Below are positions 16,922-34,187 of a DNA stretch of 37,425 nt, piece by piece. The notes beneath the pieces were generated by a model. It ran no database searches. It was not told the DNA's origin and worked only from the letters and a program-made list of their open reading frames with translations. Position numbers and translations under genes: made by a program. The DNA lies in contig ONJM01000032.1 of the NCBI GenBank assembly GCA_900318145.1, positions 1 through 37,425 on the forward strand. The letters run 5' to 3'. Each line of letters begins with the position of its first letter. Position 1 is the first letter of the stretch. Source of the DNA: an uncultured Eubacteriales bacterium (GTDB taxonomy: Bacteria > Bacillota > Clostridia > Christensenellales > Aristaeellaceae).

Positions 16922-18451
16922 TTATTCTCCGAGGAAGGCTTTCAGCTGGGCATTGGCTTCGTCGACAATTTTCTGCATGCCGGCGTCTTCCAGCTTGGAA
17001 AGGAGCTCGGGCAGCGCGGTGTCCACGTCGACCGCGCCGGTGCACAGGCTCAGCGCATAAGCTTCCCTTACGTTTGCGACTGCGCCGATTTCAGTTTCCA
17101 GGGGCTTCGTGTCGAAAGCGAAACCGACAATGGGAAGCGTTTTGGCGTTGCCGTAGAAATCGGCGAACTTCTGCTGATAATCCGCGCCCTGGCCTTTCTG
17201 CGGAGGCAGGAGAGTCACATTGCCAAGACCGTTGGTCCAGGGGGAGTAGGTGGCGCGGGCATCCGCGTTGAATTCCACTTCACCTTCAGCGTTCAGGTTG
17301 TAGTGGATGCCTTCCACACCGTAGTTGAGCAGGGTCATCACATAGGGATCTGTGTTAAGCAGGGCGAGGAATTTCATGGCCTCTTCAGGATGACTGCTCT
17401 TGGAGGAAATGGCCATCATGGCGCCCTGGAGGGAAGTGGTGTCGATATAGGGGGTTGCGGTGGTCCAGACATAGTCCAGATCAATGCCGCGCTGAGCGCG
17501 GGTGGTGGCTTCATAACCGTAGGAGTACACTTCAGTGGAGATCAGATAACGAGCCGTATTCTGCGCATTGCGCCAGGTATCGGTGGCTGTTTCGCCGATA
17601 GCAATGGCGGGATCGATATAGCCGGCCAGATAATATTCACGCATCTGCCTGGCGAATTTTTCAAATTCAGGAGTAGCGTACTTGTTGAAAAGTACGTTGC
17701 CGTACGCTCCGGGTGCGGATACGTCCTCCACATTCATGTAATAGCTCAGCAGACTGTTGGCATCGCCGGTCACGATGGGTGTGCCGTTCACGCAGCGCTC
17801 CGCCACCAGGCCTTCAAACACGAAGGGGTAGAATACTTCGCCCTCATGCTCTTTCTCTTCGCCTTCCTTTACTTTGGCGAAGATATCGCCCCATCCGTAG
17901 AAACCGGCGCTTTTCACGTCATCCAAAGTATAGCCGTATTTTTCCAGCAGGGTTACGTTCACGTCCCAGGTGTTCAGGGTGGCAATATCCTTGAATCCGG
18001 GTACGGCATAAATGCCCTTTTCGCCGTCGATACCCTCGGTTTTCGCGCCTTCGATGAGCATAACGGGCAATACGTTATACAGATCCTGGCCGTACTTCTC
18101 CAGCAGGTTATCCTCCGGATCATCCAGACGCACATAAGCGTCTTTTTTAGCGAATTTGGCGTATTCGTTTTTGGTCCAGGAGCAGGTGAAAAGGATATCG
18201 TATTCGTCATTGGCGCTGGTCACATAATCCAGGGCAAGATCATCAAAGTTGCCCCAGGTGCCCCAGGTGGGTTTCAGGGTGACGCCGATTTTCTCGGTCA
18301 GGTAGGCGTTGAGCTTTTCCAGTACGGCGGTGTCATCGGTCACGTTATTGCCTTCGAGCAGCATGGTGATTTCCACGGGGCTGTCCGCCATCGCGGGAAC
18401 CAGGGTCAGCAGCATGACGGCTGCCAGGATGAGAGCAAGGAACTTCTTCAT
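16922..18451 (-). CDS. Extracellular sugar-binding protein of a Lpl-type ABC transporter
   Basis: 509 residues. A clear signal peptide (MKKFLALILAAVMLLTLVPA, cut likely after AMA near residue 22) is followed by a large binding-protein fold of the type found with LplB/LplC permeases. These proteins bring oligosaccharides to the permease pair. There is no Cys near the cleavage site, so the usual lipid anchor is missing. GGAGGT at 18458-18463 supports the start. It is the third gene of the leftward operon. The substrate is unknown; the GlcNAc and cellobiose enzymes on both sides make a beta-linked disaccharide likely. Confidence 0.88.
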   Translation of the reverse strand: MKKFLALILAAVMLLTLVPAMADSPVEITMLLEGNNVTDDTAVLEKLNAYLTEKIGVTLKPTWGTWGNFDDLALDYVTSANDEYDILFTCSWTKNEYAKFAKKDAYVRLDDPEDNLLEKYGQDLYNVLPVMLIEGAKTEGIDGEKGIYAVPGFKDIATLNTWDVNVTLLEKYGYTLDDVKSAGFYGWGDIFAKVKEGEEKEHEGEVFYPFVFEGLVAERCVNGTPIVTGDANSLLSYYMNVEDVSAPGAYGNVLFNKYATPEFEKFARQMREYYLAGYIDPAIAIGETATDTWRNAQNTARYLISTEVYSYGYEATTRAQRGIDLDYVWTTATPYIDTTSLQGAMMAISSKSSHPEEAMKFLALLNTDPYVMTLLNYGVEGIHYNLNAEGEVEFNADARATYSPWTNGLGNVTLLPPQKGQGADYQQKFADFYGNAKTLPIVGFAFDTKPLETEIGAVANVREAYALSLCTGAVDVDTALPELLSKLEDAGMQKIVDEANAQLKAFLGE

Positions 18452-18490
18452 GGGAATACCTCCATTATAAAATATTGATGTATTTGCAAG

Positions 18491-18512
18491 CAGCGGTTTG
18501 AGACCCCCGCTG
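18491..18512 (-). other. Hairpin between permease and binding-protein genes
   Basis: CAGCGG (18491-18496) and CCGCTG (18507-18512) form a 6-bp stem with a 10-base loop in the 64-base gap of the leftward operon. It could protect mRNA ends and raise the level of the binding protein relative to the permeases, as is common in such operons. There is no T run, so it is not a terminator. Confidence 0.45.
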
Positions 18513-18515
18513 TTC

Positions 18516-19445
18516 TTACCCCTTTACGCTGCCGATCGTCAGGCCGGCCACCACGTAGCGCTGGAAGAAAGGATACGCGCAGGCGATCGGCAGTACGATG
18601 AAGACGACGACGGCCATGCGCATGGTCTGGCTGGGAAGGTTGCGGATGGCGTCAGCTCCGGACGCACCGATCATGCTGGAATTACGTGCCAGGAATTCAG
18701 CGTTGCGCTGCATTTCCATCAGAAGATACTGCAGGGGATACAGCTTGCGGTCCGTCACGTAGAGGAGGCACAGGAACCATTCGTTCCAGTAACCCAGGGC
18801 GGTGAGCAGTGCTACCGTGGCGATACCGGGCTTCATAATGGGCAGTACGACGCGCACAAGCGTGGTGTATTCTCCGCTCCCGTCGATGGTGGCTGCCTCG
18901 ATCAGGTCGAAAGGTACGGTGGTCTGAAAAAAGGTGCGCATGATGATAATGTAGAAAGGACTGACCAGCATTGGGACAATCAGGGCATAAAAATTATTGC
19001 TCATTCCCAGCAGATCCTTGCACACGATGTAGGTGGGGATCAGGCCGCCGCCGAAGATCATCGTGAAGAAACTGAAGAAGCTGAAAAAGCCGCGGTATTT
19101 ATAATCCTTGCGGTACAGCGGGTATGCATACAGGATGCACATGGCAACACTGACCACTGTGCCGACGACGGTAATGAAGAAACTGTTGAAGTAGCTGCGC
19201 CACAGGGCATCACCCAGCTTCAGCACCTGCTCGTATGCCGCAAGGGACCATGACTGCGGCAGGAACGAATAGCCAATTCTCCGGATGCTGTCTTCCGATG
19301 AAAATGAGATGATGATGACAAAGACAAAGGGAATGATGCAGGCAAGGGCAAAGATTCCCAGGACGATGTGGAAAACGGCCTCGGTTTTGCGGCTTACCAT
19401 ATTCAGGCGGAAGGTGCCCGGCGCTTTCTTTACTGCGGTCGTCAT
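18516..19445 (-). CDS. Carbohydrate ABC transporter permease (LplC/YtcP type)
   Basis: 309 residues with about six membrane segments. The ATG at 19445 is chosen because GGAGG (19455-19459 region) precedes it; the open frame continues upstream into the other permease gene. The ATPase-contacting EAA loop is clear: EAATIDGSGEYTTLVRVVLP. It belongs to the second permease type of Lpl systems and pairs with the gene at 19462. No ATPase gene is nearby, so a shared MsmK-like ATPase encoded elsewhere is probable. Confidence 0.92.
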   Translation of the reverse strand: MTTAVKKAPGTFRLNMVSRKTEAVFHIVLGIFALACIIPFVFVIIISFSSEDSIRRIGYSFLPQSWSLAAYEQVLKLGDALWRSYFNSFFITVVGTVVSVAMCILYAYPLYRKDYKYRGFFSFFSFFTMIFGGGLIPTYIVCKDLLGMSNNFYALIVPMLVSPFYIIIMRTFFQTTVPFDLIEAATIDGSGEYTTLVRVVLPIMKPGIATVALLTALGYWNEWFLCLLYVTDRKLYPLQYLLMEMQRNAEFLARNSSMIGASGADAIRNLPSQTMRMAVVVFIVLPIACAYPFFQRYVVAGLTIGSVKG

Positions 19446-19461
19446 GATGCTTCCCTCCTTC

Positions 19462-20439
19462 TCAGAACAGGCTGCTGTCAGGATCCAGCCGGCGGACAAT
19501 CCCGTTTGCGGCCATGATGCAGATGAAGCCGACCAGATTCTGCAGGAAGCCGGCGGCGGTGCTCATACCGACATTGCCGGTGGATGTGTAGGCGCGGTAT
19601 ACATAGGTATCCACGACCTGGGTAACGGGGAACAGCGGCGCGGAGTTCATCGGGACAGACCAGAACAGGCCGAAATCGGCGTTGAAGATTTTGCCGACAT
19701 TCATGATGAGCAGAATAATAATCATGGGTTTCAGGTGCGGCAGGGTCACATGGGTCATCTGCTGCCATTTTGTCGCTCCGTCTACAGCGGCCGCCTCATA
19801 CTGGGTGCGGTCGATACCGGTGATGGCGGAAAGATACAGCACTGTGGAATATCCGGTATTCTTCCATATGGAACAGATGGTGAGAATGTATGGCCAGTAC
19901 GCGGGAGTGTTGTACCAGTCGATCGCGTTGCCGCCGGCAGCCCTTTGAGCCCGTGAAATCATGCCGTTGGTGGGGTCCAGGAAAGCGAAGAGAAAGTAAG
20001 CAACCACAACCCAGCTGAGGAAATAGGGAAAAAACATCATGGTCTGGTACGTCTTGGCAAGGAACTTTTTCGTCAGTTCGCTCATCAGGATAGCGAACGT
20101 TACCGAAATAAGCAATCCCAGCACAATCCACAGCGCGTTGTAGCCGATGGTGTTGCGGATCATGGCCACGCTTTCGCCGGTGAACAGGAAGTTAAAGTTC
20201 TTAAGGCCAATCCATGGGCTTTTGAAAAGATTGGCGGGGAAAGGCAGCTTGCGTGTCGGCAGCCTGTAATCCAGGAAAGAGAGCGAAATACCGAACATTG
20301 GCAGATACCGGATCAGCAGCAGCCAGATTGTTGCGGGAAGCATCATGGTCGTCAGCCAGATTGTCTTTTTGCGCGGGGCAAATGTGCCGCGGCGGAGACG
20401 GGATCCGGCCGGGCTGGCCTTGGCTTTCATCAGGGTCAT
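19462..20439 (-). CDS. Carbohydrate ABC transporter permease (LplB/YteP type)
   Basis: 325 residues, six membrane segments after a basic N-terminal tail. Typical features are the early motif RYLPMFGISLSFLDYR and the EAA loop YEAAAVDGATKWQQMTHVTLP. First gene of the leftward transporter operon. The start at 20439 has AAGGAGG 11 bases away. It lies 16 bases upstream of the partner permease gene. Substrate is inferred from neighbours only. Confidence 0.92.
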   Translation of the reverse strand: MTLMKAKASPAGSRLRRGTFAPRKKTIWLTTMMLPATIWLLLIRYLPMFGISLSFLDYRLPTRKLPFPANLFKSPWIGLKNFNFLFTGESVAMIRNTIGYNALWIVLGLLISVTFAILMSELTKKFLAKTYQTMMFFPYFLSWVVVAYFLFAFLDPTNGMISRAQRAAGGNAIDWYNTPAYWPYILTICSIWKNTGYSTVLYLSAITGIDRTQYEAAAVDGATKWQQMTHVTLPHLKPMIIILLIMNVGKIFNADFGLFWSVPMNSAPLFPVTQVVDTYVYRAYTSTGNVGMSTAAGFLQNLVGFICIMAANGIVRRLDPDSSLF

Positions 20440-20484: not shown

Positions 20485-20514
20485 ATTCTACAAAACATAC
20501 ATGCGCTGTGTCAT
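20485..20514 (-). promoter_or_regulatory. Promoter of the ABC transporter operon
   Basis: On the minus strand: ATGACA (20514-20509), an 18-base spacer and TAGAAT (20490-20485), 46 bases before the permease ATG. It lies in the 205-base divergent region shared with nagA, where a common regulator could act on both operons. Confidence 0.6.
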
Positions 20515-20576
20515 TATCTCCTGTTGTGAATTCTTGCCTCCGGTTGTCCTGTTGGCCGGCGGAAGACAAATTACGG

Positions 20577-20644: not shown

Positions 20645-21778
20645 ATGCTGATCCGAAATGCCGCGGTATATAATGGAAACGAATTTGTCCGCGTCCTGGA
20701 CGTCCGCGTCCGGGACGGAAAAATAGCCGAAACCGGCACAGGCCTGCGCCCGGAACCGGGAGAGAGGACCGCGGACCTGGAAGGCGATTTCCTGCTGCCT
20801 GGCTTTGTGGACGTGCATATCCATGCCTTCGGCGGGCACGACACCATGCAGGGCGAAGCGGCGGTCCGGGCCATGAGCAGGGAACTGCTCCGGCTGGGCG
20901 TGGCCGCGTTCTGCCCGACGACGATGAGCGCGGATCCGGAGGAGACGCTCCGGGCGGTCCGGGGGATCCGGGCCGTGATGGACCGGCCGGAACCCGCGGG
21001 GGCCCGGGTGCTCGGGGCGCACATGGAAGCTCCGTTCCTGCAGGAGAGCAAGGCGGGAGCCCAGCGGAAGGAATACTTTACGGATCCGTCCATGGAAGCG
21101 CTGGAGAAACTGACCGGCGGGGATACCGCCGCGGTGAGGCTGATTACTGTGGCGCCGGAAAGGAACGGCAGCGAGGCCTTCATCCGGCAGGCGTCGGCGG
21201 CCGGAATCCATGTTTCCGTCGGCCATACCGCGGCGACGGCGGAACAGACGCACCTGGCCGCGGACTGGGGCGCGGATCACGTGACCCATACCTTCAACGC
21301 GCAGACGCCGCTGCATCACCGGGCGCCGGGCGTTCCGGGGGCTGCCCTGACGGACAGCCGGCTGTACTGCGAAATGATCTGCGACGGAATTCACCTCCAC
21401 CGGGACACTGTGCGCCTGCTGGCCCGGTGCAAAGGGCCGGAACGGGCGGTGGCAGTCACGGACGCGATGGAGGCCGCGGGCCTTCCGGACGGCGAATACG
21501 CGCTGGGCGGGCAGAAGGTGACCGTCCGGAACGGCGAGGCCCGGCTGGCGGACGGAACGCTGGCGGGCTCTGTGCTGACAATGCCCGGAGCGCTGGAAAA
21601 CCTGATCCGCCTTTTCGGGATCCGTCCGGAGGAGGCGTGCGCCATGTGCACCTGTACGCCGGCGGATTCCGTGGGGGAGGCGCTGGCAGGAAGAATCATC
21701 CCGGGCGCTCCGGCCGTACTGACGCGCTGGAGCCGGGACTGGCGGATGACCGGCGTGCTGACGGAAACGGCGGAATAA
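20645..21778 (+). CDS. nagA: N-acetylglucosamine-6-phosphate deacetylase
   Basis: 377 residues from the ATG at 20645 (GGGAG at 20632-20636); the frame is open further upstream but family homology starts here. It converts GlcNAc-6-P to GlcN-6-P and acetate in the cytosol. Amidohydrolase marks are HIHAFGGHD (His58, His60), the metal Glu in AHMEAPF, GHTAAT and HTFNAQTPLHHR, and the catalytic Asp in VTDAMEAAG. First gene of a rightward set with chitobiose phosphorylase and a phosphomutase, which together make a complete route from chitobiose to GlcN-6-P. No nagB is in the window. Confidence 0.93.
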   Translation: MLIRNAAVYNGNEFVRVLDVRVRDGKIAETGTGLRPEPGERTADLEGDFLLPGFVDVHIHAFGGHDTMQGEAAVRAMSRELLRLGVAAFCPTTMSADPEETLRAVRGIRAVMDRPEPAGARVLGAHMEAPFLQESKAGAQRKEYFTDPSMEALEKLTGGDTAAVRLITVAPERNGSEAFIRQASAAGIHVSVGHTAATAEQTHLAADWGADHVTHTFNAQTPLHHRAPGVPGAALTDSRLYCEMICDGIHLHRDTVRLLARCKGPERAVAVTDAMEAAGLPDGEYALGGQKVTVRNGEARLADGTLAGSVLTMPGALENLIRLFGIRPEEACAMCTCTPADSVGEALAGRIIPGAPAVLTRWSRDWRMTGVLTETAE

Positions 21779-21842
21779 ACAGAATGCCAAAGAGAGGCAA
21801 GAAAAAGCAAGAACGTTCCTGTGATCCCGGATTGCCGGCTGA

Positions 21843-21848
21843 TATAAT
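21843..21848 (+). promoter_or_regulatory. Possible internal promoter before the chitobiose phosphorylase gene
   Basis: A perfect TATAAT lies in the 100-base gap after nagA, with no good -35 at the usual distance. It may be an activator-dependent promoter or chance. TGAGGAG (21864-21870) follows as the ribosome-binding site. Confidence 0.35.
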
Positions 21849-21878
21849 AAAACCGACAAAACCTGAGGAGATGTGAAT

Positions 21879-24272
21879 ATGCGTTACGGTTTCTTCGATG
21901 ATCAGGCGCGTGAATACGTGATCGACCGGGTGGACGTTCCCCAGTCGATGACAAACTATCTGGGTACGCAGCGGATGGGGACCGTGATCTCCCACTGCGC
22001 CGGAGGGTACTCCTGGCTGGACAGCCCGCAGCATCACCGGATCACCCGCTTCCGGCCCAACGGCGTGCCGATGGACTGGCCGGGGCATTATGTGTATCTG
22101 CGGGATGACGAAAGCGGGAAATACTGGTCCCTGAGCTGGCAGCCCACCGGGCTTCCCCTGGACAAGGCAAAATATGAAGCGCGCCACGGCATGAGCTATT
22201 CCCGCTTCCGGTGCGAAACGGAGGGAATCCGGGGAGAGCAGACGCTGTTTATTCCCCGCGAGGACGGGGACGAGGATCCCGTGGAGATCTTTGACGTGAG
22301 GGTCCGCAACGAATCGGACCGGACAAGAGCCCTGAGCGTGTTCGGCTATGTGGAATTTTCTTTCCATGAAATCGATATGGACAACCAGAATTTCCAGATG
22401 AGCCTGTATGCCGCCGGATCCCATTATCAGGAGAACGCGGTGCTGTGCGAGCTGCATTACGAGCCGGGCGCCTGGCAGTTTTTTGCCGGGGACTTTGTGC
22501 CGGACGGATTCGACGGCGTGCGGGAAGCGTTCATCGGGCCTTACCGTACGGAGCGGAATCCGCTGGGCGTGGCGGAAGGGAAGCTGGGCGGCTCCCTGGA
22601 ACTGGGCGGAAATCCCTGCGGCGCGCTGCAGAAGAAGATAACGCTCCGGCCGGGAGAGGAAGCCCGGGTGCTCTTCTACCTGGGAACCGGCAGCGGGGAA
22701 GCCGCGCGGAAGGTACGGGAACGGTATGATACAGCCGGGACGGACCGCGCCTTCGCGGAACTGCGCAGGTTCTGGGGCGAAAAGCTCGGCATGCTGCAGA
22801 TTTCGACGCCGCATGAAAACATGAACCGGTCCCTGAACATCTGGAACCTGTATCAGAGCGAGATCAACGTGCTGTTTTCCCGTTTCTCCTCCTTCATTGA
22901 AGTCGGAGGCCGGACCGGCCTCGGATACAGGGACACGGCGCAGGACGCCATGTGTATTCCGCACGCGGAACCGGACATGTGCCTGAAACGGATCCGGCAG
23001 CTGCTGCACGGGCAGATGCGCATGGGATACGGCCTGCACCTGTTTGATCCGGCAGTACTGGAACAGGGGGAGGAGGACGGTTTCAGATCGCCCACGGTGA
23101 TTCCGGAAACGGACCGGAAAAGCATGCTGCACGGTCTCCGGGACGCCTGCGCGGACGACGCCCTGTGGCTGATCCCGGCAATTGTCGAAAACGTGCGGGA
23201 AAGCGGACGCACGGATTTCCTTGACGAGGTGATTCCTTTCGCGGACGAGGGCCGCGGCACCGTATGGGAACATATGAAGGCGGCGCTGGACTTCTCCTAC
23301 GCGCAGACGGGCGCTCACGGCGTGACAAAGGGCCTGCGGGCGGACTGGAACGACTGCCTGAACCTTGGCGGCGGGGAAAGCGCGATGGTCGCCTTCCTGC
23401 TGGTCTGGGCGACAAACCATTTCCTGGACGCCGCCCGGGCGCTGGGCCGGACGGAAGACGCGGAAAAGTACGCGAAACTGAAGAAAGCCATGGAGGAAAC
23501 CTGCCGGAAGGAACTGTGGGACGGCGAATGGTTCCTGCGGGGATTCACGGCGGACGGCCGGGCGATCGGATCCCGGGAAGCCCGGGAAGGCAAGGTGCAT
23601 ATGGAAAGCAATACCTGGGCGGTCATCAGCGGGGCGGCGACCCGGGAACAGGGGTTTTCCTGCATGGACGCGGTGGACGAATGGCTGTACACCCCCTGGG
23701 GTCTGATGCTGAACGCGCCGTCCTTTGTGACGCTGGACGACAGTATCGGATTTGTGACCCGGGTATACCCGGGGGTCAAGGAAAACGGAGCGATCTTCAG
23801 CCATCCGAATCCCTGGGCCTGGGTGGCGGAATGCATGCTGGGCCGCGGAAGCAGGGCGATGAAATTCTACGACGCGCTGCTGCCGGAAAACCAGAATGAC
23901 AAAATGGAAATCCGGCAGGCGGAACCGTACACCTACTGCCAGTTCATCATGGGCCGGGACCATACGGCCTTCGGCAGGGCCAGGCATCCCTTCATGACCG
24001 GATCCTCCGGATGGGCCTATTACGCGGCAACGCGGTATATGCTCGGCATCCGGCCCGGGTTTGAAACGCTGACGGTTGATCCGTGCATTCCGGCTGAATG
24101 GGACGGATTTGAAGCTGTCCGGAAGTGGCGCGGGGCGGAATACCGGATTTCAGTCCGGAATCCGGATCACGTGGAAAAGGGTGTCAGGAAGATTCGCGTG
24201 GACGGCGCGGAAACGGCGGAGATCCCCGCTTTCGGCAGCGGAGTTCACAGCGTGGAAGTTCTCATGGGCTGA
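21879..24272 (+). CDS. chbP: N,N'-diacetylchitobiose phosphorylase (GH94)
   Basis: 797 residues from the ATG at 21879; a GTG at 21873 is too close to TGAGGAG. It splits (GlcNAc)2 with phosphate to GlcNAc and GlcNAc-1-P. From recall, the sequence resembles Vibrio chitobiose phosphorylase along its whole length: [39 protein letters not shown] (general acid in DWND, 489-492), GVKENGAIFSHPNPWAWVAE and AEPYTYCQFIMGRDH. It differs from the cellobiose-type enzyme at 14396 in these same places. It is cytosolic with no signal peptide. nagA upstream and a phosphohexomutase downstream support the GlcNAc assignment. Activity on related N-acetyl disaccharides cannot be excluded. Confidence 0.9.
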   Translation: MRYGFFDDQAREYVIDRVDVPQSMTNYLGTQRMGTVISHCAGGYSWLDSPQHHRITRFRPNGVPMDWPGHYVYLRDDESGKYWSLSWQPTGLPLDKAKYEARHGMSYSRFRCETEGIRGEQTLFIPREDGDEDPVEIFDVRVRNESDRTRALSVFGYVEFSFHEIDMDNQNFQMSLYAAGSHYQENAVLCELHYEPGAWQFFAGDFVPDGFDGVREAFIGPYRTERNPLGVAEGKLGGSLELGGNPCGALQKKITLRPGEEARVLFYLGTGSGEAARKVRERYDTAGTDRAFAELRRFWGEKLGMLQISTPHENMNRSLNIWNLYQSEINVLFSRFSSFIEVGGRTGLGYRDTAQDAMCIPHAEPDMCLKRIRQLLHGQMRMGYGLHLFDPAVLEQGEEDGFRSPTVIPETDRKSMLHGLRDACADDALWLIPAIVENVRESGRTDFLDEVIPFADEGRGTVWEHMKAALDFSYAQTGAHGVTKGLRADWNDCLNLGGGESAMVAFLLVWATNHFLDAARALGRTEDAEKYAKLKKAMEETCRKELWDGEWFLRGFTADGRAIGSREAREGKVHMESNTWAVISGAATREQGFSCMDAVDEWLYTPWGLMLNAPSFVTLDDSIGFVTRVYPGVKENGAIFSHPNPWAWVAECMLGRGSRAMKFYDALLPENQNDKMEIRQAEPYTYCQFIMGRDHTAFGRARHPFMTGSSGWAYYAATRYMLGIRPGFETLTVDPCIPAEWDGFEAVRKWRGAEYRISVRNPDHVEKGVRKIRVDGAETAEIPAFGSGVHSVEVLMG

Positions 24273-24292
24273 ACCGGAGGGAGGAAACGGAT

Positions 24293-25714
24293 ATGATTCA
24301 GTTTGGCACAGGCGGCTGGAGAGCCGTCATCGGAGACGGATTTACCCGGGAAAATATCCGGCGGATTGCGGCGGCGCTCGCGCGGAGAATGGTCCGCGAA
24401 AACTGCGCGGAACAGGGCATCTGCGCGGGGTATGACCGGCGTTTTCTGAGCCGGGAAGCCCTGATCTGGTTCTGCGAGGTGCTGGCCGGGGAAGGCGTGA
24501 AGGTCCGGTTCGTCAATATGTCCTGTCCCACGCCGCAGGTTATGTACACCGTGAAGCATCTCGGACTGCCCTACGGCGCCATGGTCACGGCCAGCCACAA
24601 CCCGGCCATCTGGAACGGAATCAAACTGTTCACCGCCGGGGGAAGGGACGCGGCGGAAAACTATACCCGGGAGATCCAGGACGAAGCCAACGCGATTGAC
24701 GGGGCAGGGATCCGGTCCGTTTCTTTCGAACAGGCGCTGGCGGAAGGAAAAATCGTGGTGATCGATCCGCGGGACGACTATCTGGACTCCATTCTCCGGC
24801 AGCTGGATACGGACGCGATCCGGAAACGCCGGCTCCGGATCGTGCTGGACCCCATGTTCGGCGTGAGCCTGACCGGGCTGCAGACGATTCTCTACACAGC
24901 CCGGTGCGATATCGACGTGATCAACGACCGGCACGACGCGTTTTTCGGCCGGCACCTTCCGGCGCCGAACCCGGACACGCTGGTGGACCTTCAGTACGCG
25001 GTGAAGGAACACCGGGCGGACGTGGGAATCGCCACGGACGGCGACGCGGACCGGCTCGGGATCATCGACGAAAAAGGGCGTTATGTGACAGCGAACGAAA
25101 CGCTGGCGCTGCTGTACTATTATCTGATGGAATATAAAGGCTGGCGGGGCGCCGCGGTGCGGAACATCGCGACGACGCACCTGCTGGACCGGATCGCCGC
25201 TGCCTACGGGCAGGAATGCGTGGAGGTGCCGGTGGGCTTCAAACATATTTCGGCAGGCATGGAGGAATATGACGCGCTGATCGGCGGGGAATCCTCCGGC
25301 GGCCTGACGGTCCGGGGACATATTTCCGGCAAGGACGGCCTGTATGCCGCGAGCCTGCTGGTGGAAATGCTCAGCGTTACGGGGAAAAAGATGAGCGAAC
25401 TCGGATACGAAGTGTTTTCCCGGTTCGGGGAACTGCATTCGGCGGAATATGACTGGCCGCTGACACCGGAGAAAAAGGAAGAGATTTTCCGGCTCGTCAT
25501 GACGGAGAAGCGGCTGCCGGATCTCGGCCGCAAGGTGGAGAAAGTCAGTTATATGGATGGATGCAAGGTCTACCTGGACGGCGGATGGGTCATCGTCCGG
25601 TTCTCCGGAACCGAGCCGCGCGTCCGGATTTTCGCGGAGGCCGAAACGGAAAAGGCGGCCCGGGAGCTTGTGGAAATCATGGCCCGGCATACCGGACTGG
25701 CCTGGGAGGCCTGA
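24293..25714 (+). CDS. Phosphohexomutase, probably acting on GlcNAc-1-P
   Basis: 473 residues from the ATG at 24293 (GGAGGGAGG upstream); the open frame before that lies inside the previous gene. Alpha-D-phosphohexomutase superfamily: phosphoserine loop TASHNPAIWNGIK (Ser101), metal loop DGDADRLG, sugar loop GGESSGG and phosphate loop RFSGTEPRVR. Members interconvert hexose-1-P and hexose-6-P. The sequence resembles bacterial phosphoglucomutase/phosphomannomutase; its place 20 bases after the chitobiose phosphorylase gene suggests it turns GlcNAc-1-P into GlcNAc-6-P for NagA, as in the Vibrio pathway. It could also serve Glc-1-P from the cellobiose enzyme. Confidence 0.87.
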   Translation: MIQFGTGGWRAVIGDGFTRENIRRIAAALARRMVRENCAEQGICAGYDRRFLSREALIWFCEVLAGEGVKVRFVNMSCPTPQVMYTVKHLGLPYGAMVTASHNPAIWNGIKLFTAGGRDAAENYTREIQDEANAIDGAGIRSVSFEQALAEGKIVVIDPRDDYLDSILRQLDTDAIRKRRLRIVLDPMFGVSLTGLQTILYTARCDIDVINDRHDAFFGRHLPAPNPDTLVDLQYAVKEHRADVGIATDGDADRLGIIDEKGRYVTANETLALLYYYLMEYKGWRGAAVRNIATTHLLDRIAAAYGQECVEVPVGFKHISAGMEEYDALIGGESSGGLTVRGHISGKDGLYAASLLVEMLSVTGKKMSELGYEVFSRFGELHSAEYDWPLTPEKKEEIFRLVMTEKRLPDLGRKVEKVSYMDGCKVYLDGGWVIVRFSGTEPRVRIFAEAETEKAARELVEIMARHTGLAWEA

Positions 25715-25744
25715 GGAAGAAACAGGGAAGGAACGGACGGAAGC

Positions 25745-27487
25745 ATGGCAAAGGAAAAGGACCGGGAGCGGGCAGGGGGCGGATTCCGGAACCGGGTGAA
25801 CTCGCTGCGTGTTCAGGTCGGCCTGATGATCCTGCTCAGCTATCTGATCCCCGTGGCGCTGCTGGGCTTTTTTACCGGCAGCATCCTTCTGGGCAGCCTG
25901 GAGGAGAAGACGGAAGCGGCGGTAACCTCCAGCGCGGAGCATGCCTTTGCCATGACCGAACAGAATATCAGTAGGACGGTGGACCTGGCACGGGACGCCA
26001 CCTATGACGGGGAACTGACGGCAGCCTGGGAAAAATGGAACAGCGGGGCAGCGGGAGACGCTGAATTCCTGAAGCTGTGCCGGGGATATCTGGACCGGAA
26101 ATACAGCCGGGAGCCCTTATTCCTTTTTGCGGGCTGCTTTCCCGTAAACAAGCCGGAGCTGCTGATCAGCAACCGGGGAAGCACCCATGATTCGCCGGCT
26201 TATCTGCAGGAACTGCAGCAGGCGGTGACGGAACTGGGCGAAACGCTGGACACCCGTTGCTGCTTCTTCAGCTTCGGCGGACGGATGTATCTGGTCCGCA
26301 ACCTGCTGAACCAGCGGATGGAGCGGTACGGCATGCTGATCCTGGGCGTGAATCAGGATGAGCTGTTCGGGCCGCTGAACAGCCTGAAAAATGAATGGGA
26401 CGCGGCGGTTTCCGTCCGGCTCGACGCCTACGGGGATTTCCCGGAGGACTGGGAAAACCTGACCGCCGGACTGACGGACGACCGGCGGGCGGAGAAGCTG
26501 CTGTATGTCCGGCTGGCGCGGGGGGAGGAAAACGTACCCGACCTGAAGCTGACCGTGGACCGGCGGCAGCAGTACCGGGAGGTGTATGAATTCCGCCGCC
26601 TGCTGACGCTGGTGTATCTGCTGCTGATTCCGATCCTGATCCTGATGGCGGTCTTTCTCCGGAAACGGATCACAAAGCCGATTTCCCTGCTTTCAGACGC
26701 CAGCCGGCGGATTGAGAGCGGAGAACTCGGCGTCACCGTGCCCATGCACGGCAGCGATGAGCTCGGCCAGCTGGGAGAAGCCTTCTCCCATATGTCCCTG
26801 CGGCTGAAAGAACTGATCGACAGGACCTACAAGGAAGAGATCGAACTGAAGAACGCCCAGATCCTGGCGCTTCAGAGCAGGATCAATCCGCACTTCCTGA
26901 ACAACGCGCTGGAGGACATCAACTGGCAGGCGCGGATCGAAGGGTCTGAAACAATCTCCTCGATGGTATCCGCCCTGTCGGTACTGCTGAACGCCACCAT
27001 GGACCGGAAGAACCGCCGGCTTGTGACGCTGCGGGAGGAAATGGAGGTGGCGGACGCCTACATCTTCTTTGTGCAGCAGCGTTTCGGGCCGGAACTGACC
27101 GTGAACAGGCAGATTGATGAACCGGCGCGGGAAAGCATTCTGCCGCTGCTGACCATTCAGCCGCTGCTGGAAAACGCCGTGGAGCACGGGATTGCCCGGG
27201 CCGGCGGAGGGACCATTTCGATGGAGTGCACACGCGCCGGAAAATGCCTGCATCTGGCAATCCGCAATACCGGCATGGGCGCCGGAAAGGAAGACCGGGA
27301 GCGGATCGACGCCGCGCTGCGGGGCCGGCCGACGGAAAACCATCTGGGGCTTGCAAACATTGTGAACCGGCTGCGCCTGATTTACGGGGAAAACGTCGGA
27401 ATCCGGGTGGATACGGACCGGCCCGGGGAAACCGCGGTCCTGATCGATATTCCCCAGGAATTCGAAACGGAGAGGAGTACACAATGA
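25745..27487 (+). CDS. YesM-like sensor histidine kinase
   Basis: 580 residues. TM1 is at about 25-48, an extracytoplasmic sensor domain at about 49-285, TM2 at 286-305 and a HAMP domain at about 306-358. The His_kinase module follows, with the phosphorylated His383 in INPHFLNNALEDINW, then the ATPase domain with N box QPLLENAVEHG and LGLANIVNRLRL. YesM kinases pair with YesN-type AraC regulators to control sugar uptake. The stop overlaps the next gene's start (ATGA). Gene order kinase, binding protein, regulator suggests the binding protein feeds the signal to the sensor domain. The ligand is inferred to be a chito-oligosaccharide. Confidence 0.92.
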   Translation: MAKEKDRERAGGGFRNRVNSLRVQVGLMILLSYLIPVALLGFFTGSILLGSLEEKTEAAVTSSAEHAFAMTEQNISRTVDLARDATYDGELTAAWEKWNSGAAGDAEFLKLCRGYLDRKYSREPLFLFAGCFPVNKPELLISNRGSTHDSPAYLQELQQAVTELGETLDTRCCFFSFGGRMYLVRNLLNQRMERYGMLILGVNQDELFGPLNSLKNEWDAAVSVRLDAYGDFPEDWENLTAGLTDDRRAEKLLYVRLARGEENVPDLKLTVDRRQQYREVYEFRRLLTLVYLLLIPILILMAVFLRKRITKPISLLSDASRRIESGELGVTVPMHGSDELGQLGEAFSHMSLRLKELIDRTYKEEIELKNAQILALQSRINPHFLNNALEDINWQARIEGSETISSMVSALSVLLNATMDRKNRRLVTLREEMEVADAYIFFVQQRFGPELTVNRQIDEPARESILPLLTIQPLLENAVEHGIARAGGGTISMECTRAGKCLHLAIRNTGMGAGKEDRERIDAALRGRPTENHLGLANIVNRLRLIYGENVGIRVDTDRPGETAVLIDIPQEFETERSTQ

Positions 27488-28692
27488 GGCTGACGAGGAT
27501 TCGGGCGCTGCTTCTCGCGGTGATTCTGGCTGCCTGCTGCGTTTCCGGCGCCGCCGCGGAAGGGATCACCCTCCGTACGGTAAGCTGCTTTGCCGGGGAT
27601 GATTCGGCGGCAAGCGTATATGTGGATATCCTGAACCGGTATGAATCGGAGACCGGCAATACCGTCCGGGATACATCATCCAGCAGCGATGAGGCATGGA
27701 AAAGCTCCGTGCTGAATGACTTCGCGGCGGGGAATGAACCGGATATCCTGTTCTTCTTTGCCGCGGGAGCGGATTCCGCGCCGCTGCTGTCCCGGGTTGT
27801 GCCCCTGGAGGAGATCAACGCGGCGTATCCCGGGATCCGGCTGACGGAAAACGACGCGCTGCGGGAATCGGACGGAAAAACTTACGCGGTCCCGGTGCGG
27901 GGATACTGGGAAGGGCTGTATGTCCACACGGACCTGTTTGAAAAATACGGCGCGCCGCTGCCGGAGGACTGGGATTCCCTGCTGGAGGCAATCCGTATTT
28001 TCCGGGAGAACGGTATTACGCCGATCGCTGTTTCCCTCTCGGATATTCCGCATTACCTGGCGGAGATGGCAGTGCTTTCCTGCGCCGCAAAGGAGGAACA
28101 GGAGGCCCGGCCGCGCTCCGCGGGAGAGGTTCCGGAATCCTGGCTGGAAGCGATGCGCGTGATCCGGGAACTGACCGAAGCCGGCGCGTTCGCGGACAAT
28201 GCCGCGGCCACGTATGAAAGCGCGTCCACGGCGCAGTTCCTCGCGAAGGAAGCGGCGATGCAGTTTGACGGGAGCTGGATGGCCTCCTCGATTGCTCCGG
28301 ACCAGATGGACACGATCGCTGTGCTTCCGATGCCCCGGAGAGACGGAAAGGGGACGGCGGACTGCTACATCGGCGGCGTATCCATGGGGTTTTATCTGAC
28401 GCGCCGGGCCTGGAACTCCGGGCGCCGGGACGCGGCGGTGCAGCTGCTGGCGGACCTAACAAGCCAGGACAGCCTGCAGCGCCTGGGGAATATCATGCTC
28501 TCCGGCAGGCTGCAGGCGTCGGCGGAACAGATGCAGGCGGGGCGGGCAATGGTCAGCCCTCTGCAGGACGCCATGAACAGGAATGCGCGGGAGGTCTGGC
28601 TGCTGGAATGCATTCCGGCGGTGGCGGACGGAAGCATGACGGCGGAACAGTGCTGGGAAACGGTGATGGCGCTTGCTCCTTTCGGAGAGTGA
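27484..28692 (+). CDS. Sugar-binding (lipo)protein between kinase and regulator
   Basis: 402 residues. The signal peptide has a possible lipobox, LAAC (Cys18), or could be cut after AAA near residue 25. The mature part fits the family-1 type of sugar-binding proteins (NRYESETGN, FAAGNEPDILFF, AAMQFDGSWMASS). There are no permease genes beside it. The start overlaps the kinase stop and it ends nine bases before the regulator. This placement resembles XylFII-LytS-YesN of Clostridium, where a binding protein presents the sugar to the kinase. A sensory rather than transport role is inferred; it could also serve the transporter at 18516-20439. Confidence 0.85.
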   Translation: MRLTRIRALLLAVILAACCVSGAAAEGITLRTVSCFAGDDSAASVYVDILNRYESETGNTVRDTSSSSDEAWKSSVLNDFAAGNEPDILFFFAAGADSAPLLSRVVPLEEINAAYPGIRLTENDALRESDGKTYAVPVRGYWEGLYVHTDLFEKYGAPLPEDWDSLLEAIRIFRENGITPIAVSLSDIPHYLAEMAVLSCAAKEEQEARPRSAGEVPESWLEAMRVIRELTEAGAFADNAAATYESASTAQFLAKEAAMQFDGSWMASSIAPDQMDTIAVLPMPRRDGKGTADCYIGGVSMGFYLTRRAWNSGRRDAAVQLLADLTSQDSLQRLGNIMLSGRLQASAEQMQAGRAMVSPLQDAMNRNAREVWLLECIPAVADGSMTAEQCWETVMALAPFGE

Positions 28693-28701
28693 GGTGAGCA
28701 G

Positions 28702-29448
28702 ATGTACCGGGTGATTCTGGTGGATGACGAACGGCTGATTATCCGGGGACTGTCCAGCGTGGTTCCCTGGGCGGAGCTTGGCTGTGAGGTGGCGGGGGTC
28801 GCCTATGACGGGAAGAGCGGACTGGAACAGATCCGCAGCCTGAAACCGGATATTGTCCTGACGGATATCCGCATGCCGAATATGGACGGCCTGACCATGC
28901 TCGCGGCAATCCGCAGCGAGCATCCCGAGATCCAGACGGCCGTGCTGACGGCATACCGTGATTTTGATTATGCCCGGCAGGCGCTGACCCTGGGTGTCTG
29001 CCGCTATCTGCTGAAGCCGAGCAATCTGGAGGAACTCAAGGAAGCTGTCCGCATGATGGTTTCCCGGCTGGACGCCATGCCGGCGCGGAAGGAGGAACAG
29101 GAGGAGGAAACGCTTCAGGCGGCAGGAAATCACCTTGTCCGGGCTGCGCTGGCCTTTATGAAGGAACACTGCTCTGAACAGCATCTTTCTCTGGGCGAAG
29201 TGGCGGATCATGTTTACGTAAGTCAGTGGCACCTGTCCAAGCTGCTGAACCGGGAAACAGGGCAAAGCTTTTTTGACCTGCTGGGCTCCCTGCGGATCGG
29301 AAGAGCGAAGGAGCTGCTGGCGGACCCTTCCATGAGAATTCAGGATGTCGCGGAAGCCACGGGCTTTTCAGATGTCGCGCACTTCTCCCGCAGCTTCAAG
29401 CGCATTGCCGGCTGCACTCCCGGCGAATACAGAAATCAGCGTGAGTAA
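28702..29448 (+). CDS. YesN-like response regulator (receiver + AraC DNA-binding domain)
   Basis: 248 residues. Receiver domain 1-120 with acidic pocket Asp8/Asp9, phospho-acceptor Asp55 (TDIRMPNMDG), a conserved Thr in LTAY and Lys in YLLKPS. After a short acidic linker come two AraC helix-turn-helix units (SLGEVADHVYVSQWHLSKLL; IQDVAEATGFSDVAHFSRSF). It is shorter than many YesN proteins, which carry a long middle region. GAGGTGAG precedes the ATG. It likely activates the nagA-chbP set and the divergent transporter, but no binding site could be defined by eye. Confidence 0.92.
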   Translation: MYRVILVDDERLIIRGLSSVVPWAELGCEVAGVAYDGKSGLEQIRSLKPDIVLTDIRMPNMDGLTMLAAIRSEHPEIQTAVLTAYRDFDYARQALTLGVCRYLLKPSNLEELKEAVRMMVSRLDAMPARKEEQEEETLQAAGNHLVRAALAFMKEHCSEQHLSLGEVADHVYVSQWHLSKLLNRETGQSFFDLLGSLRIGRAKELLADPSMRIQDVAEATGFSDVAHFSRSFKRIAGCTPGEYRNQRE

Positions 29449-32334: not shown

Positions 32335-32412
32335 CGGGGTGTAGCGCAGTCTGGCTAGCGCACGTGCTTTGGGAGCATGGGGCCGGGGGTTCGAATCCCT
32401 TCACCCCGACCA
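32335..32412 (+). tRNA. tRNA-Pro (TGG)
   Basis: Acceptor CGGGGTG pairs with CACCCCG; the anticodon loop is CTTTGGGAG with TGG; the T arm has GGTTCGAATCC; CCA is encoded. 78 bases, normal cloverleaf. Confidence 0.95.
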
Positions 32413-32428
32413 AACTTACCCTGTACGT

Positions 32429-32501
32429 GGCTCCGTGGTCAAGAGGCCTAAGACACCGCCCTTTCACGGCGGCTACCCGGGTTCGAATCCCGGCGGAGTC
32501 A
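32429..32501 (+). tRNA. tRNA-Glu (TTC)
   Basis: Acceptor GGCTCCG pairs with CGGAGTC (one G-T pair). Anticodon stem CCGCC/GGCGG encloses TTC. CCA is not encoded (the discriminator A is followed by CTT), so it must be added enzymatically. Confidence 0.92.
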
Positions 32502-32521
32502 CTTTTCTTCCTTTCCGATAT

Positions 32522-32595
32522 GGGCCTTTAGCTCAGTTGGTCAGAGCGGCCGGCTCATAACCGGTTGGTCCGGGGTTCAAGTCCCTGAAGGCCCA
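32522..32595 (+). tRNA. tRNA with CAT anticodon (elongator Met or Ile2)
   Basis: Acceptor GGGCCTT pairs with AAGGCCC; the loop is CTCATAA. The CAT anticodon could be elongator Met or, if modified by TilS, Ile2; sequence alone does not settle it here. It is not an initiator because the acceptor starts with a closed G-C pair. CCA is not encoded. Confidence 0.88.
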
Positions 32596-32607
32596 CAGCC
32601 TTTTTAA

Positions 32608-32684
32608 GGCCCGGTAGCTCAGTTGGTTAGAGCGCCAGCCTGTCACGCTGGAGGTCGAGGGTTCGAGCCCCTTCCGGGTCGCCA
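32608..32684 (+). tRNA. tRNA-Asp (GTC)
   Basis: Acceptor GGCCCGG pairs with CCGGGTC; anticodon loop CTGTCAC; discriminator G and encoded CCA. 77 bases, normal. Confidence 0.95.
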
Positions 32685-32726
32685 CTTACAGTTCGGATCC
32701 GCCGGCTGTTTTGGGAAGAGCTTCGT

Positions 32727-32802
32727 GCTGGCGTAGCTCAATTGGCAGAGCAGCTGATTTGTAATCAGCAGGTTGCGGGTTCGAGTCCCATCGCCAGCTC
32801 CA
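32727..32802 (+). tRNA. tRNA-Thr (TGT)
   Basis: Acceptor GCTGGCG pairs with CGCCAGC; anticodon stem CTGAT/ATCAG with TGT; encoded CCA at 32800-32802. The next tRNA starts right behind it with no room for a spacer. Confidence 0.95.
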
Positions 32803-32887
32803 CCCTTTGGGTCAAGAGGGACAAAGGGAGCAGACTGTAAATCTGCCGCTATCAGCTTCGGTGGTTCGAATCCACCCCTGCCCACCA
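32803..32887 (+). pseudogene. tRNA-Tyr (GTA) with damaged 5' half
   Basis: The 3' part is a normal tRNA-Tyr: the last part of the D arm (CAAAGGGAGC), anticodon loop with GTA, long variable arm, T arm GGTGG/CCACC, 3' acceptor strand CCTGCCC, A and CCA (32885-32887). The matching 5' acceptor GGGCAGG and the first D-stem strand are absent; instead there is GGGTCAAGAGGGA. Only 19 bases separate the CCA of tRNA-Thr from CAAAGGG, less than an intact tRNA needs. A deletion of at least several bases has occurred, probably an assembly error. Confidence 0.8.
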
Positions 32888-32893
32888 TCTTCT

Positions 32894-32980
32894 GCGGGAA
32901 TGGCGGAATTGGCAGACGCGCATGATTCAGGTTCATGTGTACGTACGTACTTGCAGGTTCAAGTCCTGTTTCCCGCACCA
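32894..32980 (+). tRNA. tRNA-Leu (CAG), likely integration site
   Basis: Acceptor GCGGGAA pairs with TTCCCGC; loop TTCAGGT gives CAG; long variable arm GTAC/GTAC; encoded CCA ends at 32980. It is the last tRNA of the cluster and stands directly before an integrase gene pointing toward it, the usual arrangement at a tRNA attachment site. Confidence 0.92.
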
Positions 32981-33068: not shown

Positions 33069-34187
33069 CTATACGCCATGGCGGTTCGCGCTTTCCTTCT
33101 GCATGGTGGCGGTGACGTGTGCGTAGCGATCCAGTGTGAATGCCGAGGAGTAATGCCCGGCGTTCTGCTGGATCGTTTTTACGTCATCCCCCGCCATAAT
33201 GGAACTGACCACATAAGTGTGTCTCAGATCGTGGAAGCGGTGCGCGTCGATACCCGCTGCCACCAGGATCTTGTGAAGAATCTTCCATGCGGTCGGCTGG
33301 GACAGGTGGCTGCCATCCGGATGCGTGAACACCAGGTTGGGGAAGCCGCCATCGTTCCATGCCGGCCCCAGCGCTTTCCGCTGTGCTTCCTGCTCTTCCT
33401 TGTGCTTCTTCAGCACCTGGAAGACCGTAGGAGCGGGAGCGATGGTGCGGGGCTTGCTGTTCTTCGGTGTCGCAAACCGGAAGACTTCGCCTTTCTTTCT
33501 CGGCTGAGCCAGCTGCTTGGTGACCCGAATCAGACCGTTCTCAAAGTCCACAGAATCCCAGGTCAGCCCCAGCAGCTCGCCGGACCGCAATCCGGTGAAG
33601 ATTGCGGTCACGATGAGCGCCTCATGCTCGTGGCCTTTCAGAAAGGCCAGCAGCTTGGAAAGTTCCGGCGTATCCAGCGGATGAATCTCCGCTTGCTCGA
33701 TCCGGGGCAGGATGCAGTTGCTGGATGGATTCTTGCTCAAGTAGCCTATTCTGACAGCCACATCCAGTGCCTTATGCAGGCAGCCGTGAATGTTCTTGAT
33801 GGATTTCGGACTGAGCCCTTCCTCCCGCTTCTTATTGTAGAGGCGCTGAATCATGGGCGTTCGGAGTGCCGACAGTTTGACGTCTCCGAGCGCGGGGATG
33901 ATGTGCACCCGGATCTGCATTTCGTAGGTATCAGCAGTGCCGAGCTTCACATTCCCCAGGTAGTCGCGGTGCCACATGGTCAGCCATTGGCCGAGGGTCA
34001 GGCCGCTGTCCTCTCTGAAATCACCATGGTCGATGGTGACGGAGACTTCGGTCAGCTTCTTCCGGACTTCCGCCTGGGTTCGTCCATAGACCGAATGCCG
34101 TTTTCCATCGGCACAGTATCGGGCTTCCCAGCTTCCGTCAGCCCGTTTTCTGATGGTTCCTTCGCCGTTAGCACGCTTTCTTGCCAT
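33069..34187 (-). CDS. int: Tyrosine site-specific integrase
   Basis: 372 residues. An N-terminal arm-binding region (GEGTIRKRADGSWEARYCAD) and a SAM-like core-binding domain at about 63-160 precede the catalytic domain. Catalytic residues can be placed: Arg201 (TGLRSGEL), Lys at about 242-245 (PKNSKPRT), His319 and Arg322 (HDLRH), His345 (GHYSS) and the nucleophile Tyr355 (LDRYAHV). The family resembles Tn916/phage-type integrases. It points toward tRNA-Leu(CAG), the presumed attachment site. Its start overlaps the end of the excisionase-like gene by 20 bases. Confidence 0.95.
   Translation of the reverse strand: MARKRANGEGTIRKRADGSWEARYCADGKRHSVYGRTQAEVRKKLTEVSVTIDHGDFREDSGLTLGQWLTMWHRDYLGNVKLGTADTYEMQIRVHIIPALGDVKLSALRTPMIQRLYNKKREEGLSPKSIKNIHGCLHKALDVAVRIGYLSKNPSSNCILPRIEQAEIHPLDTPELSKLLAFLKGHEHEALIVTAIFTGLRSGELLGLTWDSVDFENGLIRVTKQLAQPRKKGEVFRFATPKNSKPRTIAPAPTVFQVLKKHKEEQEAQRKALGPAWNDGGFPNLVFTHPDGSHLSQPTAWKILHKILVAAGIDAHRFHDLRHTYVVSSIMAGDDVKTIQQNAGHYSSAFTLDRYAHVTATMQKESANRHGV

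Follow-up and report, generated by a model that had tools for sequence, protein, structure and literature searches.

The stretch of DNA considered here, the 37,425 nucleotides of contig ONJM01000032.1 (assembly GCA_900318145.1, an uncultured Eubacteriales bacterium of the Aristaeellaceae; "the window" hereafter), carries a locus that, judging from its sequence, is probably a catabolic regulon for chitobiose, (GlcNAc)2, the disaccharide of N-acetylglucosamine (GlcNAc), with import, sensing and phosphorolysis under one regulator. Six genes follow each other on the plus strand, encoding NagA, an N,N'-diacetylchitobiose phosphorylase (ChBP), a phosphohexomutase, a YesM-type sensor kinase, a sugar-binding protein (substrate-binding protein 2, SBP2) and a YesN-type response regulator, whilst an Lpl-type transporter with a substrate-binding protein of its own (SBP1) and two permeases runs divergently from them on the minus strand (16922-20439). 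This order had been proposed in an earlier note, made from the letters of the sequence, and is confirmed by the open reading frames (ORFs) and their family matches.

The pathway that can be put together from these genes is as follows. The transporter would import chito-oligosaccharides, mainly the disaccharide, which ChBP would split with phosphate into GlcNAc-1-phosphate (GlcNAc-1-P) and GlcNAc, with the mutase then expected, again by homology, to convert GlcNAc-1-P to GlcNAc-6-phosphate (GlcNAc-6-P). NagA and a NagB-like enzyme encoded elsewhere in the genome would feed glycolysis, and a ROK-family kinase, also encoded elsewhere, may take the free GlcNAc. SBP2 would, to go by the anatomy of the genes and by precedent, bind the disaccharide outside the cell and pass a signal by way of the YesM-type kinase to the regulator of YesN type. 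This regulator would bind sites of the form TTGTCTnnnnTTG, a motif found statistically, and so activate the transporter along with the ChBP operon.

The ORFs of the window were assigned from their Pfam and TIGRFAM profile matches, with domain scores in bits set against the cut-offs of the models. The protein that starts at 21879 carries both the supersandwich domain (PF06165, 252 bits) and the catalytic domain (PF17167, 549 bits) of glycoside hydrolase family 94 (GH94). Compared with solved structures it scores 1020 bits against 1v7v, the chitobiose phosphorylase of Vibrio proteolyticus, and 532 bits against 8bou, which is also labelled a diacetylchitobiose phosphorylase, with the cellobiose phosphorylases at 466 bits or less. 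The alignment further shows conservation of the DWND motif that holds Asp492 of 1v7v, which we take to be the catalytic aspartate and general acid. By homology the enzyme is a diacetylchitobiose phosphorylase and not one of the cellobiose type. The thought that it might be a cellobiose-type phosphorylase, or one for another non-acetylated sugar, arises from a second GH94 gene of the window (14396-16840), only 5 kb away and presumably cellobiose-phosphorylase-like from its sequence, of which it could then be another copy; this is highly improbable, as the score of the 21879 protein with the characterised chitobiose enzyme exceeds that with every cellobiose phosphorylase by more than 550 bits, nagA adjoins the gene in the clade of the window, a GH20 gene follows the mutase in one related locus, and chitin-binding SBPs are the top profile matches of SBP2. 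The 14396 gene is 35-38% identical to ChBP and stands outside the set; no regulator site over 12 bits was found for it in the window. A gene of its type is kept upstream of the transporter in 10 other loci, with 92-96% identity. The relevant part of a 2022 review (PMC8950772) lists three characterised diacetylchitobiose phosphorylases, those of V. furnissii, V. proteolyticus and Ignavibacterium album.

The genes themselves recur in many relatives. For the comparison of gene order the best 80 of 124 loci from a search of genome contigs, mostly ruminant-gut Clostridia by record title, were joined by 40 further loci, L143 and the window, giving 122 loci (5 duplicates included), nearly all of which title or kinship places in the Clostridia. 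Among the best 80 of the 124 there are also Lachnospiraceae, Oscillospiraceae, a spirochaete and a Leptolinea. An orthologue of ChBP is found in 90 of 308 genomes of the family to which the window belongs (about 57% identity or more, with fragments and the genome of the window counted) and in 11 of 391 genomes of an even sample of the class, the window's included (E value 1e-240 or better). The earlier suggestion that such a locus is unusual in Clostridia runs counter to the family count and to the Lachnospiraceae and Oscillospiraceae records. The core of ChBP, mutase, kinase, SBP and regulator recurs in many of the 122 loci, and the arrangement is therefore not due to chance. A search for the same gene order across Clostridia, which had been proposed as a check, thus finds the core to be common, but just 5 of the 122 loci have nagA immediately before ChBP (the window, L004, L005, L007 and L103), and its candidacy as a core gene of the set was rejected on that count.

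The nagA of the window is a good match to its family (288 bits on TIGR00221, cut-off 225.65). Each of 11 genomes of the genus has one nagA above the cut-off, and the copy beside ChBP is the sole nagA found in the genome of the window, which is 88% complete; this suggests that the gene moved to its present place and was not copied there. It is a local insertion between two predicted regulator sites and probably lies outside the regulated core. Thus the description of the locus as one of chitobiose phosphorolysis with its own sensing genes holds by homology for the enzyme, the mutase, nagA and the sensing set, with the reservation that nagA probably does not belong to what is regulated.

A mutase is found near ChBP in 108 of the 113 loci that have more than 1.8 kb of sequence downstream. 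That of the window falls below the GlmM cut-off (161 against 447.55 bits on TIGR01455) and also below that of its best model, Arch_GlmM (311 against 439 bits), and a separate, proper GlmM with 534 bits on TIGR01455 (cut-off 448) is encoded elsewhere in the genome, beside the nagB-like gene. From its superfamily domains and its linkage to ChBP, the mutase is a probable GlcNAc-1-P mutase distinct from the GlmM of the genome. In L136, a locus without sensor genes, a GH20-type glycosidase gene comes directly after the mutase (L136:1403-3229).

A GlcNAc kinase and nagB had been named as the only members missing from the set; the genome does carry, away from the locus, one nagB-like gene and two genes for ROK-family kinases. 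The nagB-like gene reaches 217.5 bits on TIGR00502 and so stays under the cut-off of 236.9, as it does (cut-off 237) in all 11 genomes of the genus searched, although the four models on which it scores highest all bear the name glucosamine-6-phosphate deaminase or deaminase-like. For both ROK kinases the top model is one for glucokinase, with one protein above and one below its cut-off, and a search of the genome with PF01869 gave weak partial matches only, below the cut-off. A route from (GlcNAc)2 to glucosamine-6-phosphate that spends no adenosine triphosphate (ATP) on GlcNAc-1-P, as had been envisaged, is sound by homology for the GlcNAc-1-P half, but the half that starts from free GlcNAc still costs ATP.

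The sensing genes are where the window departs from its more distant relatives. In other families the genes mostly run ChBP, mutase, kinase, SBP2, permease A', permease B' and regulator, with SBP2 accompanied by its own permease pair in 21 of the 25 loci that carry it. In the window and most loci of its family the A' and B' permeases are gone, and in most cases a transporter of the Lpl type lies close by. Taking all loci together, the Lpl-type transporter alone is present in 54, the permeases alone in 24 and both in none; the remainder are 10 with SBP2 and neither transporter in view, some of them short sequences, and 34 that are incomplete or lack sensor genes. SBP2 is therefore without an adjacent permease pair in 64 of 88 loci (54 with Lpl and 10 unclear, duplicates included). 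The exclusivity of the two states rests on the absence of any locus with both, as a run of independent pairs is empty as a test and uninformative because the states are defined as complements. One locus with rearranged genes, L069, was set to the permease state by hand; it consists of two divergent runs, one with ChBP and the other, on the opposite strand, with kinase, SBP2, permeases, regulator, mutase and nagA.

Within the family of the window L020, L032 and L033 retain the permeases. The L020 pair shares 46-59% identity with permeases from the operons of other families (one alignment being short), against 24-32% with unrelated permeases nearby. The permease-bearing order is thus most simply taken as ancestral. 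The two states require at least 3 changes on a ChBP tree of 118 rows, a count that does not separate gain from loss. From these relatives it would seem that SBP2 began as the ordinary binding protein of a transporter, that its permeases were lost, and that a different transporter came under the same regulator.

This other transporter does not appear to be a fixed partner. The identity of SBP1 to that of the window splits into two groups, at least 73% (14 rows) and at most 55% (46 rows), and the two types require at least 7 changes on the ChBP tree, as do the position and orientation of the transporter (also at least 7). L004 and L005 are each about 90% identical to the window in ChBP and yet differ in their type of SBP1 (81 against 54%). 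That close relatives have two types at one place, and that these need 7 changes or more, points to repeated exchange of the transporter cassette, and the import machinery thus appears to have been exchanged repeatedly while the relatives keep enzyme and sensor. That the transporter is an exchangeable module and that SBP2 is a binding protein without permeases of its own are both points which the earlier note had missed.

What, then, does SBP2 do? Its gene, that of the kinase and that of the regulator are adjacent, with no permeases belonging to the SBP, which is the anatomy of an SBP-kinase-regulator system, and the kinase and regulator have the domains of the YesM/YesN two-component family in Pfam (PF06580 with HAMP; a receiver plus an AraC-type helix-turn-helix). 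The predicted model of SBP2 has a mean confidence score (pLDDT) of 93. With an alignment profile the best solved structures are NagB2 and NagB1 of Paenibacillus FPU-7 (E values 1e-32 and 6e-32), closely followed by 4g68, an SBP of xylan utilisation (4e-31); a search with the single sequence ranks 4g68 first, and by structure the scores of NagB2 (37.1) and 4g68 (36.3) are a tie. NagB1 and NagB2 bind (GlcNAc)2 and (GlcNAc)3, with the gene of NagB1 adjoining a kinase and a regulator and that of NagB2 adjoining permeases, and the ligand contacts listed for NagB2 include Phe116, Phe166, Glu168, Trp217, Trp296, Ser334 and Asp408 (PMC8233162). These map, in that order, to F92, Y141, E143, Y191, W265, S300 and D362 of SBP2, in our own reading of printed alignments with an offset of 19, D362 needing a shift of one residue; Asp92 and Arg96 of NagB2 are outside the printed alignment and hence unplaced. 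Trp217 has thus become a tyrosine, and Asn335 of NagB2 falls on Met301, such that the site of the second sugar differs. F92, E143, Y191, W265 and S300 are identical in all 50 rows of SBP2, the position of Y141 holds a tyrosine or a phenylalanine, and D362 is conserved throughout the 27 Lpl-type rows and in 15 of 20 permease-bearing rows. By eye, 4g68 is without the Glu, Trp and Ser contacts.

The ectodomain of the kinase has no Pfam match, as is likewise reported for CuaS, the kinase of a cellobiose system in Ruminiclostridium cellulolyticum (PMC10384115). In a fold search with the kinase model the best 50 rows were mainly kinase, phytochrome and chemoreceptor entries, with the ectodomain not singled out, and the kinase domain of GanS ranked 2-3. 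SBP2 is most likely a dedicated sensor. It might instead still serve uptake, docking on the Lpl-type or on distant permeases, with the kinase sensing the sugar directly, given that SBP2 retains the fold and most of the residues of the ligand site and that the CuaSR pair still responds to cellobiose without CuaD (PMC10384115). This is unlikely, as the Lpl-type transporter already has SBP1, SBP2 stands without a permease pair in the majority of loci counted above, and the ectodomain of CuaS bound none of three sugars by calorimetry but did bind CuaD, and not the transport protein CuaA (PMC10384115). A lipoprotein nature of SBP2 was also considered and rejected; there is a possible lipobox in the window, yet none in 46 of 52 SBP2 proteins of the Lpl type in the family by a simple rule. 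By the same rule most SBP1, SBP2 and related proteins lack a lipobox, even though all 11 genomes of the genus encode LGT and LspA.

A motif search of 26 upstream regions from the family returned TTGTCTnnnnTTG with a log-likelihood of 249, against 63-69 in four shuffles that move two-base blocks and are thus weaker than true dinucleotide shuffles. A similar motif came from 19 regions of other families (111 against 58-62 shuffled), and the family matrix scores many loci of other families low, with the regions cut differently in that scan. With a matrix made without its own sites, the window has two places above 12 bits, one before ChBP and one before the transporter.

For the site before ChBP a matrix leaving out close relatives was used, and 41 out-of-family loci, 5 duplicates and 1 without the 5' end of the gene were dropped to leave 75 loci, of which 5 that were undecided on sensor genes (little downstream sequence; 4 with a site) were also excluded. 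The site is present in 56 of the 62 loci of the family that have sensor genes and in 2 of the 8 that have none (Fisher p 1.7e-4), at a median of about 102 bases before the start, and shuffles gave it in 9 of 1240. A second site faces the transporter in 34 of 38 divergent loci, part of these regions being in the training set. The strongest test, independent of training, comes from the loci in which the transporter is co-directional: a site lies upstream of permease A in all 19 that could be evaluated (from 23 rows so oriented), in regions that were not trained on, with shuffles at 5 of 380. In three of the 19 (L065, L131 and L140) sensor genes are not in view. Six loci have sensor genes but no site at ChBP, and four of these (L040, L113, L133 and L134) have one before permease A. 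A strict pattern, designed to include the two sites of the window, gave 11 hits over 16 genomes, of which 9 fall at ChBP loci, and in the genome of the window only the two known sites. No substitute regulator was found by Pfam beside the sensor-less loci among 20 chosen ORFs. The shared motif would tie the regulator, through predicted sites, to both enzyme operon and transporter.

A number of points weigh against a single regulon for chitobiose. The upstream regions were taken from raw ORF starts. Shuffled versions of the window (20) have 0-4 places above 12 bits each, single ones reaching up to 21 bits, so it is the placement of the sites, and not how many there are or how high they score, that is the evidence. 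Likewise the reversed control of the strict pattern gives more hits than the pattern itself (25), and again placement at ChBP loci is what counts. The tests of co-occurrence share ancestry, and when corrected for relatedness the link between sensor genes and site is a trend only (of 7 pairs, 4.3 agree with it and 0.5 run counter to it; median p 0.22). Absences of genes in draft genomes may be artefacts. Finally, GH18 chitinases show no association with ChBP.

The last of these bears on the natural source of the sugar. GH18 was not found in the genome of the window. A first pass over 11 genomes of the genus had GH18 in 7 of 8 with ChBP and 0 of 3 without, but the chitinase link was dropped when the 308 genomes of the family gave 31 of 90 with ChBP against 87 of 218 without (p 0.44), and a later count in the genus also found no association (15 of 34 against 3 of 11, p 0.48). 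It is possible, though the less probable case, that the substrate is GlcNAc-beta-1,4-GlcNAc from N-glycan cores or another GlcNAc glycan and not from chitin, with the same chemistry and regulation. Besides the GH18 results, this would fit the nearest solved structures of SBP1 by sequence, 5swa, 5mlt and 5suo, which we take to be a pneumococcal N-glycan SBP, but these score only 117-118 bits, incomplete assemblies may hide GH18, and neighbours in the rumen could free chitobiose from fungal or insect chitin.

A chitobiose regulon of this kind has its closest precedent in CuaDSR/CuaABC-CbpA of R. cellulolyticum, a tested three-component cellobiose system in which CuaD binds CuaS, the ectodomain of which showed no affinity for cellobiose (PMC10384115). 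The gene anatomy is alike, with a sensor SBP, kinase and YesN/AraC-type regulator, a separate SBP-bearing transporter and a GH94 phosphorylase as the output (PMC10384115, PMC6720390), and the locus has the anatomy of a system of this kind. The Cua system differs in that its sugar is cellobiose and that its sensor genes and its transporter and phosphorylase genes form two operons, whereas in the window sensor and enzyme genes run together and relatives with permeases hint at the origin of the sensor SBP. The Paenibacillus sp. FPU-7 proteins are the best-matching solved SBPs by profile, and NagB1 is alike in binding (GlcNAc)2 and in adjoining a two-component pair (PMC8233162). In FPU-7, unlike the window, there is a GlcNAcase gene near nagB1, with no phosphorylase mentioned in the parts of that report on the locus and the target genes given there as unknown (PMC8233162).

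None of the titles and abstract excerpts in the literature searched names a regulated chitobiose phosphorylase operon in Clostridia. Vibrio has a system of ChiS, a chitin-oligosaccharide-binding protein and chitobiose phosphorylase, with a single SBP for transport and sensing and with other kinase and SBP families than those of the window. The proposed likeness is in a kinase that takes its cue from a sugar-binding protein and switches chitobiose metabolism, and this coupling in Vibrio is also described in parts of two reports (PMC10384115, PMC8233162). AraPST, GanPST and XylFII-LytS-YesN are three-component sugar sensors which also combine SBP, kinase and regulator to control genes of sugar uptake and differ in their sugars and transporters. 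Two such sensors are cited in PMC10384115. The locus is thus distinctive for its sugar, for having the sensing and phosphorolysis genes in one run, and for relatives that still show the permease-bearing order.

The features of the locus are collected in Table 1. Promoter-like sites over the whole region are not enriched (4 against a shuffle mean of 4.8). Further along the window six consecutive tRNA genes (32335-32980, the last being Leu at 32894-32980) are followed by a phage-type integrase gene (33069-34187, minus strand), and the array with the integrase is possibly the edge of an integrated element.

Table 1. Genes and predicted sites of the putative chitobiose regulon, in order along the window
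Feature	Position	Strand	Basis
SBP1, Lpl-type substrate-binding protein (DUF3502) of the divergent transporter	16922..18451	-	PF12010, 79 bits
Permease B, Lpl-type transporter	18516..19499	-	PF00528 (BPD_transp_1)
Permease A, Lpl-type transporter	19462..20439	-	PF00528 (BPD_transp_1)
Promoter-like site for the transporter	20485..20514	-	10/12 matches
Predicted regulator site A, facing the transporter promoter	20530..20549	+	20.4 bits, second best in the window
nagA, GlcNAc-6-P deacetylase	20645..21778	+	TIGR00221, above cut-off
Predicted regulator site B, upstream of ChBP	21785..21804	-	21.9 bits, best in the window
GH94 N,N'-diacetylchitobiose phosphorylase (ChBP)	21879..24272	+	GH94 domains, 1020 bits to 1v7v
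Phosphohexomutase, probable GlcNAc-1-P to GlcNAc-6-P mutase	24293..25714	+	PGM_PMM I-IV, linkage to ChBP
YesM-type sensor histidine kinase	25745..27487	+	Ectodomain without Pfam match, then HAMP and His_kinase (PF06580)
SBP2, sugar-binding protein without own permeases, probable chitobiose sensor	27484..28692	+	SBP_bac_1
YesN-type response regulator	28702..29448	+	Receiver and AraC-type helix-turn-helix

Taken with its relatives, the locus allows a wider suggestion, for which the chances seem evenly balanced: that enzyme and sensor form a stable platform on which import systems are swapped, with a transport SBP, once freed of its permeases, turned into a sensor, and with replacement transporters, which vary in type, position and orientation, carrying or gaining the regulator site, so that designs with one and with two SBPs occur in one orthologous set. 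If true, this would show how one-SBP and two-SBP three-component designs interconvert. There is here a natural series in which the binding protein of a transporter seems to turn into a stand-alone sensor, and comparing the permease-bearing L020, L032 and L033 with the permease-less window and its neighbours opens the origin of the sensor SBP to study. Chitobiose phosphorylase genes are common well beyond Vibrio, and for gut Clostridia known mainly from metagenome assemblies the locus predicts a regulon for chitobiose use, complete with DNA sites, sensor and substrate.

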